In this document: piece after piece, positions 103 to 4,975 of the stretch
Layout of the letters: every line of letters begins with the position of its first letter
Numbering within the stretch: the first letter of the stretch is position 1
NCBI GenBank assembly: GCA_021824145.1
Contig: JAKALM010000001.1
Coordinates: forward strand, 1-64,000
DNA length: 64,000 bases
Reading direction: 5' to 3'
Source: Bacteroidota bacterium
GTDB taxonomy: Bacteria; Bacteroidota; Ignavibacteria; Ignavibacteriales; Ignavibacteriaceae
Program-made: the position numbers and the translations under genes
Notes under the pieces: model-generated
What the model saw: only the letters and a program-made list of their open reading frames with translations
What the model was told of the DNA's origin: nothing
Database searches by the model: none

Positions 103-127
103 CTTAGTAGCGGGGGCAGGACTTGAA
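103..127 (+). repeat. Left attachment-site repeat (tRNA 3'-end copy)
   Basis: This 25-bp sequence is identical to 4898-4922. It holds 20 nt of the initiator tRNA 3' end (T-loop to discriminator) but is not followed by the rest of a tRNA, so it is a recombination scar and not a tRNA gene. It directly abuts the terminator hairpin at 74-102. Confidence 0.92.
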
Positions 128-247
128 AAGCATTTTTTTACATTTTTCTAACTTTATTATTTTTACTTGTAATCCTTTATATTATAAGATATTATAAGGG
201 ATATTCTATAAATTTGAGTTAAGACAGATTAAAAAAAATTAAATAAA

Positions 248-269
248 AGTGTCCTCATTAGTGTCCTCA
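248..269 (+). repeat. Arm-type repeat, left copy (gtgtcctca twice)
   Basis: Two gtgtcctca units separated by tta give a 12-bp period. The whole 22 bp recurs exactly at 4824-4845, near the other end of the element. Paired direct repeats inside both ends of a tRNA-targeted element resemble the arm-type binding sites of lambda-family integrases. This copy ends 15 bp before a TATATTTG promoter box, so binding here could also control integrase expression. Confidence 0.7.
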
Positions 270-283
270 TGAAGAAATAATTT

Positions 284-291
284 TATATTTG
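284..291 (+). promoter_or_regulatory. Likely integrase promoter (-7 box)
   Basis: TATATTTG matches the Bacteroidota -7 consensus TAnnTTTG and lies 25 bp before the GTG start at 316. No TTG is seen at the usual -33 distance; the gtgtcctca repeat occupies that area, which suggests a repressor- or integrase-controlled promoter. Confidence 0.45.
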
Positions 292-315
292 CTGTAGATA
301 GTTTTTATAATTTTC

Positions 316-1575
316 GTGGCAACCGAAATGACAATTAACTTTTATCTTGATAGCAGATCAAACCAGACTGAAAAAAATATAATCCTTTATCTAAGAGGAT
401 TAGGCAAGACACTCAAATTTAATACAGGGGAAAAGATCGATCCTAAACATTGGGACAACATAAAGCAAACTGTTAAACGTACATATACCGGACACCCAGA
501 ATTAAATTCTTTTCTCAATACACTCAAAGAAAGAATAATAAAGAAAATCAGATTATTGAATGTTGAAAATGATCTTATCACTTATGATATGATAAAGGAT
601 CAAGTTGAAAGTTTATTTAAGATCAAAAAACCTATTGATAGTAAGAAATTATTTTATGAGGCCTATAATCAATTCTTAGATGTAAAGAAAAACGAAAAGA
701 GACACCGGACAATTCAAAAATATAACACACTACTGGATCACCTTAAAGCATTTGAAAAAACTAAACACTATAAACTTTCATTTGATAAAATCAATTTGAG
801 TTTTTATGAAAAGTTTACAGCATATCTTATGCAAGATTTAGAACATTCAAATAATACCATAGGTAAATATATAAGCTGTCTTAAAACTTTTTTACATTGG
901 ACTGTAGAACGTAATATTAATACTGTTATCGATTTTACAAAATTCAAAGTTTATAATGAAAAAACTGATATTGTGGTTTTAACCGAAAAAGAATTAATGA
1001 CTATCTATAGCTTGGATTTATCGAATGAAAAAACATTAGCCAAAGTAAGAGACGTCTTCTGTTTTCAATGTTTTACCGGACAAAGATTTTCTGATATTGA
1101 AAATCTAAAAAGAGATGACATTAAAGGGGATTCATGGAACTTACACACATACAAAACAAAGGATATTATTGAGATACCATTAACATCTTTAGCAAAGGAA
1201 ATATTAGAACGGTATAAAGAAAATATAAATCCTTTACCAGTTTTATCTCACCAAAAAACTAATAACCTTATAAAAATAATTTGCAGAAAAGCAGAAATAA
1301 ATGATCCGATTACTTTAGTTAGATATAGAGGACATGAGCGAATAGAAATTGTAAAACCTAAATATGAATTTATAACTACTCACACCGCAAGACGGACTTT
1401 TGTTACTATCTCACTTGAGAAAGGAATGAAAGCAGATACTATAATGGAAATAACCGGACATACAAGCTATAAAACTTTTAGAAAGTATGTTAAAATAACA
1501 AGTAAAGTTAAGCACCAGGAAATGAATAAATACTGGAAAAAACCATCTCACTTAAAAGTGATAAATTTTAAATAA
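316..1575 (+). CDS. int: Tyrosine recombinase / phage-type integrase
   Basis: This protein catalyses site-specific recombination between the tRNA-fMet attachment site and the element. The 419-aa protein has an N-terminal arm-binding-like domain (about 5-90), a SAM-like core-binding domain (about 110-210) and a C-terminal catalytic domain. The catalytic residues are visible: Arg257 (TGQRFSD), His356 and Arg359 (HTARR), His382 (TGHTS) and nucleophile Tyr391 (FRKYV). This is the architecture of Bacteroidota conjugative-transposon and island integrases. The start is GTG at 316 or ATG at 328; neither has a clear Shine-Dalgarno site. The region 317-334 around the start is repeated at the start of the next gene. 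It is the first gene of the element, at the end away from the tRNA. Confidence 0.95.
   Translation: MATEMTINFYLDSRSNQTEKNIILYLRGLGKTLKFNTGEKIDPKHWDNIKQTVKRTYTGHPELNSFLNTLKERIIKKIRLLNVENDLITYDMIKDQVESLFKIKKPIDSKKLFYEAYNQFLDVKKNEKRHRTIQKYNTLLDHLKAFEKTKHYKLSFDKINLSFYEKFTAYLMQDLEHSNNTIGKYISCLKTFLHWTVERNINTVIDFTKFKVYNEKTDIVVLTEKELMTIYSLDLSNEKTLAKVRDVFCFQCFTGQRFSDIENLKRDDIKGDSWNLHTYKTKDIIEIPLTSLAKEILERYKENINPLPVLSHQKTNNLIKIICRKAEINDPITLVRYRGHERIEIVKPKYEFITTHTARRTFVTISLEKGMKADTIMEITGHTSYKTFRKYVKITSKVKHQEMNKYWKKPSHLKVINFK
317..334 (+). repeat. Start-region repeat, copy 1 (tggcaaccgaaatgacaa)
   Basis: This 18-bp sequence spans the start of the integrase gene and recurs exactly at 1585-1602 over the start of the next gene, so both predicted proteins begin MATEMT. 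An 11-bp partial copy (cgtggcaaccg) at 4516-4526 matches 315-325. Confidence 0.75.
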
Positions 1576-1583
1576 TAAATTTA

Positions 1584-2282
1584 ATGGCAACCGAAATGAC
1601 AAATGAAAATATAAATTTTGAAAAACCAATTTTAGACCGTTACAAAAACACACCATATGAAAGTTTAATTTCAAAATCTTTTGTTTGTTACGGAAAAGTG
1701 TTTAATCTTGTTTATGAAAAATATAATATGAGGTTTAAAAAAATTTATGATATAGAGTTATGGATGTTAGGTTATTATTTTAATTTTTTAGACTATTTTA
1801 GAAATGAAGCAGTTGAGATTATAAAAGAAATCTCACCAGTTGTCTCTGTAAATGAATTAGAAAAAGCTAATGTTAATGTGTATTTAATCGAAAATGAAAA
1901 TGAGTTTGAAAACAAAGCAATTAAAAAAGGATTAAATATTGGGCTTAATAAAAACGAAATCTTTGAAATAATCGATATTCTAATTTTTAAGGATGCCGCG
2001 TATTTTATTAGTATAGCAGAGGATAAAAAGTATGTTTATAAAAACTCTATCAAATATGTTGAGGAAGGTAGGAATACAATTATGTTTTTGAAAGATAGCA
2101 AAGGGGATATTACAAAAACGAAAGCTATTTCCAAAGCCTTAAACGATCCTAACTATAAAAGCAATCCTTCTTTATCGTTGGATAAAACAATAAATAGGTT
2201 TATAAAACTTAATGAAACTAAAGAGAAAGATATATTGAAAATTGAAAATGAAATTAGATCACAATTAAGGAATTTAATTTAG
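1584..2282 (+). CDS. Unknown 232-aa protein of the integrative element
   Basis: I do not recognise a family. The product is soluble, lysine- and asparagine-rich and probably mostly helical, with no signal peptide, membrane segment or obvious catalytic motif. Residues about 30-80 are aromatic-rich, and the C-terminal third is charged and probably coiled. It begins 8 bp after the integrase stop, so it is likely cotranscribed, and its first codons (MATEMT) duplicate those of the integrase. Position directly behind the integrase would suit a cargo or accessory function such as superinfection exclusion, but nothing in the sequence shows this. Confidence 0.75.
   Translation: MATEMTNENINFEKPILDRYKNTPYESLISKSFVCYGKVFNLVYEKYNMRFKKIYDIELWMLGYYFNFLDYFRNEAVEIIKEISPVVSVNELEKANVNVYLIENENEFENKAIKKGLNIGLNKNEIFEIIDILIFKDAAYFISIAEDKKYVYKNSIKYVEEGRNTIMFLKDSKGDITKTKAISKALNDPNYKSNPSLSLDKTINRFIKLNETKEKDILKIENEIRSQLRNLI
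1585..1602 (+). repeat. Start-region repeat, copy 2
   Basis: Exact 18-bp copy of 317-334, covering the ATG at 1584 and the first internal ATG. The duplication stops immediately after, so only the initiation region is shared between the two genes. Confidence 0.75.
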
Positions 2283-2327
2283 TAAACTAAATAGAATTAT
2301 TAACTTATTTATGAAAGGAATTCTAAA

Positions 2328-2510
2328 ATGAGGGATAGTGAAAATGAAATTAATATTCCAATGACCAAGATTGAAAACTTAATAAGTCATTTAGAATTAT
2401 TAGAATTAGGAGCTATTCATATTGAATCTGAATACGGTATAGGGGATGGCATTTTAACTAATAATATAGAGTTATTATTAAAACAGATCAAAGAATTAAT
2501 TTCTAAATAA
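2328..2510 (+). CDS. Unknown 60-aa small protein
   Basis: A short acidic protein preceded by a reasonable ribosome-binding site (aaagga, about 10 nt before the ATG). It contains a helix-forming run of Leu/Ile/Glu (residues about 12-35) and a Lys-Ile-rich C-terminal helix. There is no recognisable domain. It lies between the 232-aa unknown and the HTH regulator, all on the same strand. Its small size and position suggest a regulatory or accessory peptide of the element, but function is unknown. Confidence 0.5.
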   Translation: MRDSENEINIPMTKIENLISHLELLELGAIHIESEYGIGDGILTNNIELLLKQIKELISK

Positions 2511-2540
2511 TCTATCAGAATTAGAGAATAATTTAAAATA

Positions 2541-2578
2541 TAGAATTATATAATTCTAAAAATAGAATTATACAATTA
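2541..2578. promoter_or_regulatory. Palindromic operator-like site (tagaattat repeats)
   Basis: Positions 2541-2558 form a perfect 18-bp palindrome made of two TAGAATTAT half-sites. A second near-copy starts at 2563, exactly 22 bp later (about two helical turns), and another half-site is at 2292-2300. The cluster lies 60-97 bp before the HTH gene at 2638, so an autoregulatory operator is plausible. The region is very AT-rich, so some symmetry may be fortuitous. Confidence 0.5.
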
Positions 2579-2597
2579 CTGTATATACCTATCTGAA

Positions 2598-2636
2598 AGA
2601 TTTACTTTTCAAATAAAAAAAATGAAAGGTAAATCT
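2598..2636 (+). promoter_or_regulatory. Hairpin that encloses the ribosome-binding site of the HTH gene
   Basis: AGATTTACTTTTC (2598-2610) pairs with GAAAGGTAAATCT (2624-2636) through 13 positions with one G-U pair. The right arm contains the GAAAGG Shine-Dalgarno sequence and ends one base before the ATG at 2638. If formed in mRNA it would hide the ribosome-binding site, implying translational control of the downstream gene. Confidence 0.5.
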
Positions 2637-2637
2637 G

Positions 2638-2931
2638 ATGACAAATTTAATCCTTCATAGTTTACAACCTGATGACCTTAAGGCATTAATAAAAGATTCT
2701 ATTTCAGAGGCGCTTGAGGAAAAGATAAAACCACAGCAAACAGAAAAAGAAGATCAACTAATTAAACTTAATGAGGCGTGCCGTCTTTTAGGCGTTTCAA
2801 GTGTAACTATACATAACTGGAAACGTTCAGGTTTAATTCCATTCTACCGAATAAGCAATAAAATTTATTTTAAAAAGAATGAGTTAATTCAATCACTAAA
2901 AAAAGCTAAAAGGAATTATAATGAACAATGA
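2638..2931 (+). CDS. Excisionase-like / MerR-type helix-turn-helix protein
   Basis: The 97-aa protein carries a helix-turn-helix domain of the excisionase / DNA-binding (HTH_17) type at about residues 40-90: NEACRLLGVS followed by TIHNWKRSGLIPFYRI and a wing, KIYFKKNEL. Such proteins in mobile elements act as recombination directionality factors or as regulators of the element. The N-terminal 35 residues are acidic and helical. The start at 2638 follows a GAAAGG ribosome-binding site that lies inside a hairpin. An operator-like palindrome is immediately upstream. It overlaps the next gene by 11 bp. Family assignment is firm; the excisionase role is inferred from context. Confidence 0.85.
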   Translation: MTNLILHSLQPDDLKALIKDSISEALEEKIKPQQTEKEDQLIKLNEACRLLGVSSVTIHNWKRSGLIPFYRISNKIYFKKNELIQSLKKAKRNYNEQ

Positions 2932-3199
2932 TTATATAATATTACAAAAAAGAATTGAGGAAATAATTTTATCAATTGAGAATATAATTAATTATTCGCA
3001 AGACATTTTAGAAAATCCAGATAAACCATTTATTGACAGAAATTATTTTTCTCACATCTTTAATATTTTCCATTTTCAATGGAATATGTTATTTGATACA
3101 ATTGAAACAATAGAGTCATTAAAGGATAGAAATGAACTTGAAAGAATAAAATATTTACTTACAAATTTACCAGGTGAGGCGACTAATGACCACACATGA
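2921..3199 (+). CDS. Unknown 92-aa protein between the HTH and ATPase genes
   Basis: The reading frame overlaps the HTH gene by 11 bp and the ATPase gene by about 14 bp, the arrangement of a translationally coupled operon, which supports it being real. The product is helical, with aromatic-rich centre (HIFNIFHFQWNM) and no known motif. It may be a small partner of either neighbour. Function unknown. Confidence 0.6.
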   Translation: MNNDYIILQKRIEEIILSIENIINYSQDILENPDKPFIDRNYFSHIFNIFHFQWNMLFDTIETIESLKDRNELERIKYLLTNLPGEATNDHT

Positions 3200-4358
3200 A
3201 AAATTACGAGAAAGATTTGATGCTTTACCATCTACAATAGAACAACCCAAAAACAAAAAGTTATCTAATCTTGAAAAAATTATTCGTGGCAGAAATATTT
3301 TAAAGGAAAATGTAAAAAATAAAATTTCTTTTTCTAAGCCTATATTAACCATTAATAAATTACCTTTGTTTTATCCGAGAACAATTAATGTAATACAAGG
3401 GAAAAGCGGTACACATAAAAGCAGATTAGCAGAACATCTTTGTTCAATGTTGCTTAAAAAACCAGGAACTAATATTGACTTGTTAAGTTTAGAATTAGAA
3501 GACCAAAATAAAACATCAGTTGTTTATGTTGATAGTGAGCGTAATTTATCAGAACAATACCCGTATAGTTTACAGCAAATCTTAAAAAATGCTGGATATA
3601 ATATTACTGATGAACTAACTACCTTTGATTTTATTTCTTTGATAGACATTGAAAGAATAGAACGTTTTAATTCTTTTCGTGAATATTTAGATAAAATAAG
3701 AGAGGATCATAAAGGACATATATTTGTAATTTTAGATGTATTGACAGACTTAGTTGATAATTTTAATGATCCTAAACCAAGTTTACAGCTTATCGATTTA
3801 TTAAACAGCACTATTAATACTTATGATATTACTTTCCTTTGTATAATACACGAGAATCCTTTTCAGGAAAAGGCAAGGGGACACTTAGGAACTGAATTAT
3901 TAAATAAATCCTCTACAGCATTAAGCATTAACTATGAAAAGGACAACAAAGGAAATGATCAAGATATTATTAAGATTACTTTTCTTAAATGTAGATCGTC
4001 AAAAAGAATAGAACCTTTATATGTTAAATTCTCTCAAGAAAATAATAGGCTTGTTTTTGCCGATGCCGTAGATGTAGAAAAAGCAATTTATAGTAAAGAT
4101 TCAAAAGCAAATATTTTTGAAGTGAGTAAATTTTTAGTTGATAATCTTAAGGCTATGACACCAAAGAAAGATTTAACTACACTCTTAAAGCAGGAATTTA
4201 AATGTACTGTTAGAACTATCGAAGATCGTTATAAAGATATTTTGGCGGGAGCTGGTTTAAGTACATTAGGTTATAAATTAAAAACCACTAAAAAAGGGAA
4301 ACAAGTCTATTATTCGTTAATAAAGATTTTACCAGATAACCAGGAACAAATCTTTTAA
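3186..4358 (+). CDS. RepA-like AAA ATPase (AAA_25 / RecA-fold)
   Basis: The protein (390 aa from ATG 3186) has a P-loop written GKSGTHKS at about residues 72-79, in which His replaces the usual last Gly, as seen in some RepA/RadA-like replication ATPases. It is followed by a Walker B strand ending IFVILDV and by a sensor-like segment (FLCIIHENP). The C-terminal 60 residues look like a winged-helix DNA-binding region. Relatives are hexameric RepA-type helicases or replication initiators carried by plasmids and integrative elements. The upstream alternative GTG at 3174 is less likely, because AGGTGAGG sits at proper spacing before ATG 3186. No primase is nearby. It is the last convincing gene of the element. 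Confidence 0.85.
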   Translation: MTTHEKLRERFDALPSTIEQPKNKKLSNLEKIIRGRNILKENVKNKISFSKPILTINKLPLFYPRTINVIQGKSGTHKSRLAEHLCSMLLKKPGTNIDLLSLELEDQNKTSVVYVDSERNLSEQYPYSLQQILKNAGYNITDELTTFDFISLIDIERIERFNSFREYLDKIREDHKGHIFVILDVLTDLVDNFNDPKPSLQLIDLLNSTINTYDITFLCIIHENPFQEKARGHLGTELLNKSSTALSINYEKDNKGNDQDIIKITFLKCRSSKRIEPLYVKFSQENNRLVFADAVDVEKAIYSKDSKANIFEVSKFLVDNLKAMTPKKDLTTLLKQEFKCTVRTIEDRYKDILAGAGLSTLGYKLKTTKKGKQVYYSLIKILPDNQEQIF

Positions 4359-4383
4359 TTTTCAATCGAATATCTTTCTTAGA

Positions 4384-4441
4384 ACGTTTGAAATATGAAA
4401 ACCCTATATATACCCGTTTCATATTTCAATCGTTTTTTTTT
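4384..4441 (+). terminator. Strong terminator-like hairpin after the RepA-like gene
   Basis: Arms 4384-4400 and 4417-4433 form a 17-bp inverted repeat with one mismatch, around a 16-nt loop, followed by a run of nine T. It lies 26 bp after the ATPase stop and would end the element's transcript. The unusually long perfect stem could also serve as a replication or packaging structure. Confidence 0.75.
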
Positions 4442-4471
4442 ATTCAAATCTAATCCGTATTAATACCGAAA

Positions 4472-4501
4472 AAGACTGATGCAATACTTTACATCAGTCT
4501 T
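4472..4501. repeat. Second hairpin in the element's non-coding end
   Basis: AAGACTGATG (4472-4481) pairs perfectly with CATCAGTCTT (4492-4501) around a 10-nt loop, without a T-tract, so it is not a typical terminator. It lies between the long terminator hairpin and the third ggcaacc copy. Candidate structured origin or small RNA; unproven. Confidence 0.5.
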
Positions 4502-4515
4502 AATCGATTACTAAA

Positions 4516-4526
4516 CGTGGCAACCG
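4516..4526 (+). repeat. Partial third copy of the start-region repeat
   Basis: CGTGGCAACCG is identical to 315-325 before the integrase start. Here it is not linked to a convincing gene, which suggests the sequence itself may be a protein- or RNA-binding site. Confidence 0.4.
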
Positions 4527-4823
4527 TTTATTATTCCAAATATATAAAAATTAAAAGGTACTTCTAAGGCTTGTGTCATGAGGGCTATTCGAACCTCAAT
4601 TTTTTTGCAGTTAGAATATAGAATATCTTTACCTGTTCCTGTCAATAAACTAATCAAAATAGATATAAAAAACATTTGTAAATTGATTCATGCTTATAAA
4701 ATTAATTTATACTTTCATAGATCGATTATAAGCCACTTTTATTTATTATCTGATAAAATATATGGTAAGAAAAAATTTTAAATAAAAATTTATATAATGA
4801 AATAAATCAAAAAGGCGGGGGAA

Positions 4824-4845
4824 AGTGTCCTCATTAGTGTCCTCA
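4824..4845 (+). repeat. Arm-type repeat, right copy (gtgtcctca twice)
   Basis: Exact 22-bp match to 248-269 in the same orientation, 53 bp from the right attachment repeat (the left copy is about 120 bp from the left one). Interpreted as integrase or excisionase arm sites from position and symmetry. Confidence 0.7.
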
Positions 4846-4855
4846 AATAAAAAGA

Positions 4856-4888
4856 AAGCCTTTGTAAATTGTTAAAATACAAAGGCTT
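4856..4888 (-). terminator. Element-borne terminator for tRNA-fMet
   Basis: AAGCCTTTGTA (4856-4866) pairs perfectly with TACAAAGGCTT (4878-4888). On the minus strand it follows the tRNA 3' end by about 15 nt and is trailed by a T-rich tract, so it can terminate the tRNA transcript. It lies inside the element, so the element replaces the terminator it displaced. Confidence 0.75.
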
Positions 4889-4902
4889 ATCTCTTAGCTT
4901 AG

Positions 4903-4975
<73 letters not shown>

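Follow-up and report, generated by a model that had tools for sequence, protein, structure and literature searches.

Here we describe a 4.8-kb element at the initiator tRNA gene of a Bacteroidota bacterium (Ignavibacteria: Ignavibacteriaceae; GenBank assembly GCA_021824145.1). The window, i.e., the whole stretch of DNA that was analysed, comprises positions 1 to 64,000 of contig JAKALM010000001.1 (forward strand), and all coordinates refer to it.

The element and its target site

The element consists of six genes, all on one strand, between two exact copies of a 25-bp direct repeat (CTTAGTAGCGGGGGCAGGACTTGAA), the left attachment repeat (attL core) at 103–127 (+) and the right attachment repeat (attR core) at 4898–4922 (+). 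Its G + C content is 26%, and that of the remaining window 33%. The core comprises the 21 bp of the 3′ end of the initiator tRNA gene and the 4 bp downstream of it, and no further copy with up to three mismatches was present in the 64 kb or in any of 100 shuffled sequences. The right copy lies within the intact 3′ end of a tRNA-fMet gene (4902–4975, –; tRNA-Met(CAT) according to ARAGORN), which it restores. A C1–U72 mismatch, the GGG/CCC anticodon stem and the anticodon stem-loop GGGCTCATAACCC identify this tRNA as the initiator. It is the sole full copy found in the genome, where a 121-nt search yielded no second one. The intact tRNA is located at the end that carries the ATPase gene, with the integrase gene at the opposite end.

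Two hairpins flank the repeats. The original chromosomal terminator of tRNA-fMet (60–102, –; fold –15 kcal/mol, z –5.0) corresponds to a matching hairpin that directly follows the tRNA at the equivalent place in relatives of the host, and an element-borne terminator hairpin is found at 4850–4892 (–; –19 kcal/mol, z –4.3). As read from the sequence, the element swaps the terminator of the tRNA, with the old hairpin now outside the left repeat and the new one just within the right repeat.

Each end of the element also contains a tandem motif, GTGTCCTCA TTA GTGTCCTCA (12-bp period), at 249–269 (+), 121 bp inside the left core, and at 4825–4845 (+), 52 bp inside the right core. These are the only two perfect copies in the 64 kb, and shuffled sequences contained none. 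Similar tandem pairs (period 11 or 12 bp) occur at both ends of 9 of the 11 bounded elements of the same family (see below) and in none of 3320 pairs of random segments from the same loci; we read them as putative arm-type sites of the integrase. A match to the motif in a 5-kb phage contig (L278) was rejected as a chance hit, as it is confined to a repetitive stretch that codes for Asn-Glu-Asp-Thr.

The copy numbers of repeat and arm motif in the window and in shuffled sequences rule out a chance repeat, and the restoration of a full initiator tRNA with its own terminator rules out a tRNA pseudo-fragment. A core repeat formed by a tRNA 3′ end, a restored tRNA and an intact integrase are the hallmarks of tRNA-targeting tyrosine-integrase elements, and the locus is almost certainly an integrative element. 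The initial annotation, which had listed the 25-bp repeats, the restored 3′ end of tRNA-fMet, an integrase, a helix-turn-helix (HTH) protein, a RepA-like ATPase and three unknown genes, proved correct in all these points.

Gene content

The first gene encodes a tyrosine integrase (316–1575, +; ATG at 328 is a likelier start than 316) with arm-binding (PF17293), SAM-like (PF13102) and catalytic (PF00589) domains. Its R, HxxR, H and Y motifs are intact, and its relatives reach up to 52% identity. The second gene (open reading frame ORF232; 1584–2282, +; likely start 1596) is an orphan in a slot between the integrase and HTH genes that is variable among relatives. It matched no protein family at E < 0.1 and nothing in phages or plasmids, gave weak partial matches only in genomes of the class, and showed no similarity to a gene cluster (f5) that takes the same slot in relatives; its structure model was poor (predicted local distance difference test, pLDDT, 42) and was set aside. 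The starts of the integrase gene (316–332) and ORF232 (1584–1600) share the leader TGGCAACCGAAATGACA. A third copy of TGGCAACCG is located near the right end (4518–4526); there are only three copies in the 64 kb, all on the same strand, and they possibly represent a shared regulatory or binding site.

A small unknown gene from the list of open reading frames (ORF60; 2328–2510, +) is followed by an A + T-rich inverted repeat (2528–2571, no strand assigned; fold z –4.35), a possible operator upstream of the HTH gene. The 97-residue HTH protein (2638–2931, +) matches PF12728 (E 1.3e-10) and a PHROG excisionase/regulator family (E 8.8e-11) and resembles excisionases and AlpA in position and size. 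The unknown gene ORF92 (2921–3199, +) fills a second variable slot, between the HTH and ATPase genes, and matches the equivalent small genes of relatives only with a non-significant E of 0.015 in a tiny set. It overlaps the HTH gene by 11 bp and the ATPase gene (3186–4358, +) by 14 bp, and the three are therefore probably one operon. A terminator-like hairpin followed by a T run (4383–4434, +; fold z –6.25) succeeds the ATPase gene.

All six frames are open. Family searches recognised no relaxase, primase, capsid or terminase among the six, which bears out the earlier description of an integrated element at a tRNA site without recognisable transfer or packaging genes.

The ATPase (390 residues, with an intact Walker A motif, GKSGTHKS) has no good match to Pfam or NCBIfam models; in PHROG, its similarity is to the helicase half of primase/helicases from phages. 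Its AlphaFold model, built with relatives aligned, has a mean pLDDT of 90.6 and a RecA-type helicase fold, with Z scores of 19–20.5 against RSF1010 RepA, DnaB, Twinkle and T7 gp4. The shared fold spans approximately residues 31–307, whereas the identity to RSF1010 RepA, DnaB and T7 gp4 is only 10–17% and the protein has an extra C-terminal region. Based on the modelled RecA-like fold and the Walker A motif, we assign the ATPase to the RepA/DnaB-type helicases. The nearest viral model stems from Olleya phage Harreka_1, and in a quick tree the protein falls on a long branch without firm neighbours. Single-protein scans of virus contigs with the ATPase and the integrase found nothing, and no phage matched the element at the DNA level.

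Relatives of the element

A profile scan with the ATPase recovered 142 relatives, 80 of which were kept for analysis; nearly all of these are from Bacteroidota. According to neighbour clustering of 82 ATPase loci, 75 have an HTH homologue and 62 a related integrase. Typically, the integrase gene comes first, followed by a gene of variable family, the HTH gene, a small gene of variable family and the gene for the RepA/DnaB-type helicase. The family is spread through the Bacteroidota and the host's own class. In 81 loci classified by gene clusters, the helicase is accompanied by DUF6371 (19), a fused N-terminal part (12), a BT4734-like gene (7) or no primase (43), the last being an upper figure because the clusters miss PriCT-type genes (e.g., in L091 and L164). 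Relatives with the same gene order and no recognised primase are common. The cargo that follows the ATPase gene in relatives includes type I and type IIG restriction-modification systems and GmrSD.

Eleven bounded relatives end in the 3′ ends of tRNA, tmRNA (transfer-messenger RNA) or mnmE genes. The targets are tRNA-Pro (L093, 5.7 kb), mnmE (L131 and L136, 6.5 and 9.0 kb), tRNA-Leu (L140, 7.0 kb), tmRNA (L159, same record as L090, 7.9 kb), elongator tRNA-Met (L154, 8.8 kb), tRNA-Glu (L155, 11 kb), tRNA-Gly (L170 and L171, 12 and 14 kb), tRNA-Lys (L125, 12 kb) and, in Fibrivirga algicola (L161, 12.7 kb), the same initiator tRNA. Those in tRNA genes have the polarity of the window element, with the tRNA at the ATPase end. 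The window element is not a singleton and belongs to a broad family, among whose bounded members found here it is the smallest. The statement in the initial annotation that elements in tRNA genes are usually 8 kb or more does not hold as a sharp line, as illustrated by the bounded relatives of 5.7, 6.5 and 7.0 kb and by the 6.1 kb of the Vibrio island PICMI115.

Other loci deserve mention. Solitalea longa carries four family loci in one named strain (L106, L108, L116, L127). The closest HTH relative (54% identity; L065:6124–8989, genome G147) is encoded beside a related integrase and an unknown gene of 306 residues; no helicase was seen before the end of the contig, and the locus adjoins genes that, by eye, resemble CRISPR type III proteins. 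We found no description of the family in the literature searched, which mostly did not cover subscription journals, and its novelty is provisional.

With its own helicase and integrase and no helper signature of its own, the element might be a tiny autonomous integrating replicon, a helper-independent integrative plasmid whose spread relies on natural transformation. We consider this highly improbable: no initiator, primase or partition gene was recognised in the element, all bounded relatives are chromosomal, and no plasmid record contained a full-length relative of the ATPase. The suggestion in the initial annotation of a new class of autonomous replicon consequently finds little support, the helicase being the sole replication protein.

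Mobility

The window begins at the start of its contig (C27), which leaves a left flank of 102 bp that is continued by contig C22. Both contigs overlap head to head by exactly 127 bp, up to the last base of the left repeat. The same overlap length, 127 bp, is seen where other contigs of the assembly end, and it is therefore almost certainly the k of the assembler. A fork that coincides with the inner boundary of the left repeat implies that reads run into the element and into something else. An empty site, in which the repeat continues into the body of the tRNA, predicts the base of the fork exactly. The fork therefore suggests that an empty site coexists in the sample; its second branch is absent from the assembly.

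The initial annotation held that the proposal would fall if related genomes carried the same genes fixed at the locus without attachment repeats, or if the repeat were a chance tRNA fragment with no empty site in relatives. Neither was found: the ATPase is present in 0 of 12 genomes of the same genus, the repeat is not a product of chance, and the fork points to an empty site. Most of the related genomes examined have the same neighbours upstream of the tRNA (korB, korC and a gene for an 89-residue protein) and a terminator hairpin directly downstream, but the distal flank is not conserved. A histidine kinase gene beside the site was dropped as a marker of the empty site, as it lies on other contigs in relatives. 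In relatives from two genera (L014, L016/L038 and L022), a decayed second tRNA 3′ part is located approximately 100 bp downstream of tRNA-fMet; its T-loop holds an inserted 14-bp perfect palindrome, TTCGCCGCGGCGAA, that is absent from the genome described here.

The minimal integrative element is probably active. Alternatively, it may be the stripped or dying remnant of a larger satellite or island that is now static or moved by chance transduction, comparable to the tmRNA islands moved by jumbo phages (PMC12595487). Such an origin would agree with the small size, the three orphan genes, the missing primase and the deviating G + C content, but we regard it as unlikely because the six frames are open, the integrase and Walker motifs intact and the arm-site copies perfect, because the fork suggests that the site is currently heterogeneous, and because relatives of the same gene order commonly have no recognised primase either.

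Possible routes of transfer

Several relatives carry genes of phage particles. A 7.9-kb tmRNA element of Ignavibacteria bacterium Clear-D13 (L159:334–8276) encodes an integrase, an HTH protein, the family helicase, an S24 repressor and an HK97-type capsid protein (Pfam E 7.7e-15), which matches HK97 capsid structures and phage capsids. No terminase or portal was recognised in this element, and its capsid gene had no relatives in virus contigs; it is a candidate for a capsid-bearing satellite in its own right. Three unbounded loci have terminase genes. One carries TerS and TerL adjoining its primase, where the contig stops (L169), and TerS is also present in Pontibacter virosus (L165:5372–17110) and in an IMG/VR contig (L178:1–10622). 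The latter two share the integrase, HTH protein, ATPase, DUF6371, TerS and a protein of 1.1 kaa, and are possible TerS-bearing satellites.

Conjugative mobilisation, in cis or trans, would require an origin of transfer (oriT) that is recognised by the relaxase of a helper plasmid or integrative and conjugative element (ICE), with the helicase merely maintaining the excised circle. Bacteroidota have mobilisable elements that are moved by helper ICEs, RepA is encoded on some mobilisable elements (PMC5704250), and restriction-modification cargo like that of the relatives is typical of many islands. However, the PF03432 relaxase is absent from all ten bounded elements searched (matches in three of those genomes lie elsewhere) and from the host genome, so that both relaxase and helper would have to come from outside. 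Four relatives instead have genes for capsid or terminase. We therefore consider this route rather unlikely. The capsid and terminase genes of relatives, set against the lack of a PF03432 relaxase, tilt the balance towards a phage as the putative helper of the window element.

Our preferred explanation, to which we assign a probability of about 0.5, is a minimal, site-specific integrative element in the initiator tRNA gene that depends on a helper, most likely a phage. The integrase would excise the element as a circle and restore the tRNA, together with the HTH protein, which would act as the excisionase or trigger it; ORF232 may take part as well. The RepA/DnaB-type helicase would then amplify the circle with a primase of the host or helper, and the DNA would exit the cell in the machinery of the helper. 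The likeliest helper would be a phage, possibly virulent, whose own packaging mechanism takes up multimers, as experiments have demonstrated for the PICMI satellites of Vibrio. The wider proposal of an undescribed family of minimal helper-dependent satellites in Bacteroidota and related classes, with a core of integrase, HTH protein and RepA-type helicase without primase, and with the relatives that carry capsid or terminase genes as larger forms, is made more tentatively.

Several observations weigh against the preferred explanation. The host has no PF05065 capsid gene, and its terminase signal is one weak, ambiguous profile match that also scores in most control genomes. Capsid or terminase genes were recognised in four loci only, and many other relatives carry only restriction-modification cargo. 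In virus contigs there are just two close relatives (L177 and L178), and neither shows the gene set of the window element packaged. Unlike PICMI, the element encodes no primase, and its HTH protein does not match the AlpA family model. The assembly fork could be a mixture of strains and not the result of excision.

Comparison with known systems

The PF17293, PF13102 and PF00589 domains of the integrase are of the Bacteroidota type, as in NBU1. The element resembles integrative mobilisable elements of this phylum (NBU1 and Tn4555 type) in being integrase-borne, integrated and not self-transmissible. It differs in that no relaxase or oriT was recognised, a relaxase gene of its own being the mark of canonical integrative mobilisable elements, and in that PF03432 is likewise missing from the ten bounded relatives.

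Pseudomonas tmRNA islands moved by jumbo phages (PMC12595487) share the tyrosine integrase, direct repeats at the 3′ end of an RNA gene, the lack of genes for autonomous transfer and, in members of the family described here, defence cargo. They are much larger (the shared region alone is approximately 18 kb), have alpA at the far end and occur in another host.

Phage-inducible chromosomal islands (PICIs) and their capsid-forming counterparts (cfPICIs) have an integrase, a small regulator and a replication module in common with the element, and some relatives of the element carry TerS or an HK97-type capsid gene. In contrast, the window element has no recognisable gene for TerS, capsid or redirection of packaging, and it is smaller than the 7–20 kb usually given for satellites.

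In gene order and size, the element matches the PICMI (phage-inducible chromosomal minimalist island). PICMI115 comprises 6110 bp between 17-bp repeats, with six genes (int, a gene overlapping int, alpA, up1, prim and up2); excision requires Int, AlpA and the product of the overlapping gene, replication requires the primase, and a virulent phage packages the island in the form of concatemers (PMC10803314). Genes of 13 families occur in the position beside int, and those of 8 others between alpA and prim (PMC10803314). Slot by slot, the window element has ORF232 next to the integrase gene, the HTH gene in the place of alpA, ORF92 in that of up1 and the helicase gene in that of prim. Both are near 5–6 kb, with six genes (three of them unknown), short direct repeats and no capsid or packaging genes. 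Reduced gene content, short repeats and the absence of capsid-remodelling genes, which characterise PICMIs, are all found in the element. Complete PICMIs have been reported only in Vibrio, and the search model demands int, alpA and prim together (PMC10803314). The element falls outside this model in having a RepA/DnaB-type helicase and not a primase, lies in tRNA-fMet and not beside fis, has an HTH protein that matches HTH_17 and excisionase models and not AlpA, and belongs to another host phylum. Because primase, site and host differ, we class it as working like a PICMI and not as a member of that group. The satellite that hijacks a helper, as proposed in the initial annotation, is no more than plausible from this layout, from the capsid or terminase genes of four relatives and from the missing relaxase.

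The PICMI study narrowed the minimal set of functions with which a tailed phage can be hijacked (PMC10803314). The slot order of these islands recurs here in another phylum, with a helicase replacing the primase. The element is smaller than PICMI115 and has larger relatives with capsid or terminase genes. If the element is phage-borne, it would be a second example of a minimal satellite plan, and its family would provide a route for restriction-modification cargo among Bacteroidota. The family can be tested in named members, such as Fibrivirga algicola (same tRNA), Solitalea longa (four loci) and Pontibacter virosus (TerS). If its members are indeed undescribed satellites, two distant phyla would have evolved or retained the PICMI layout, each with its own kind of replication enzyme.

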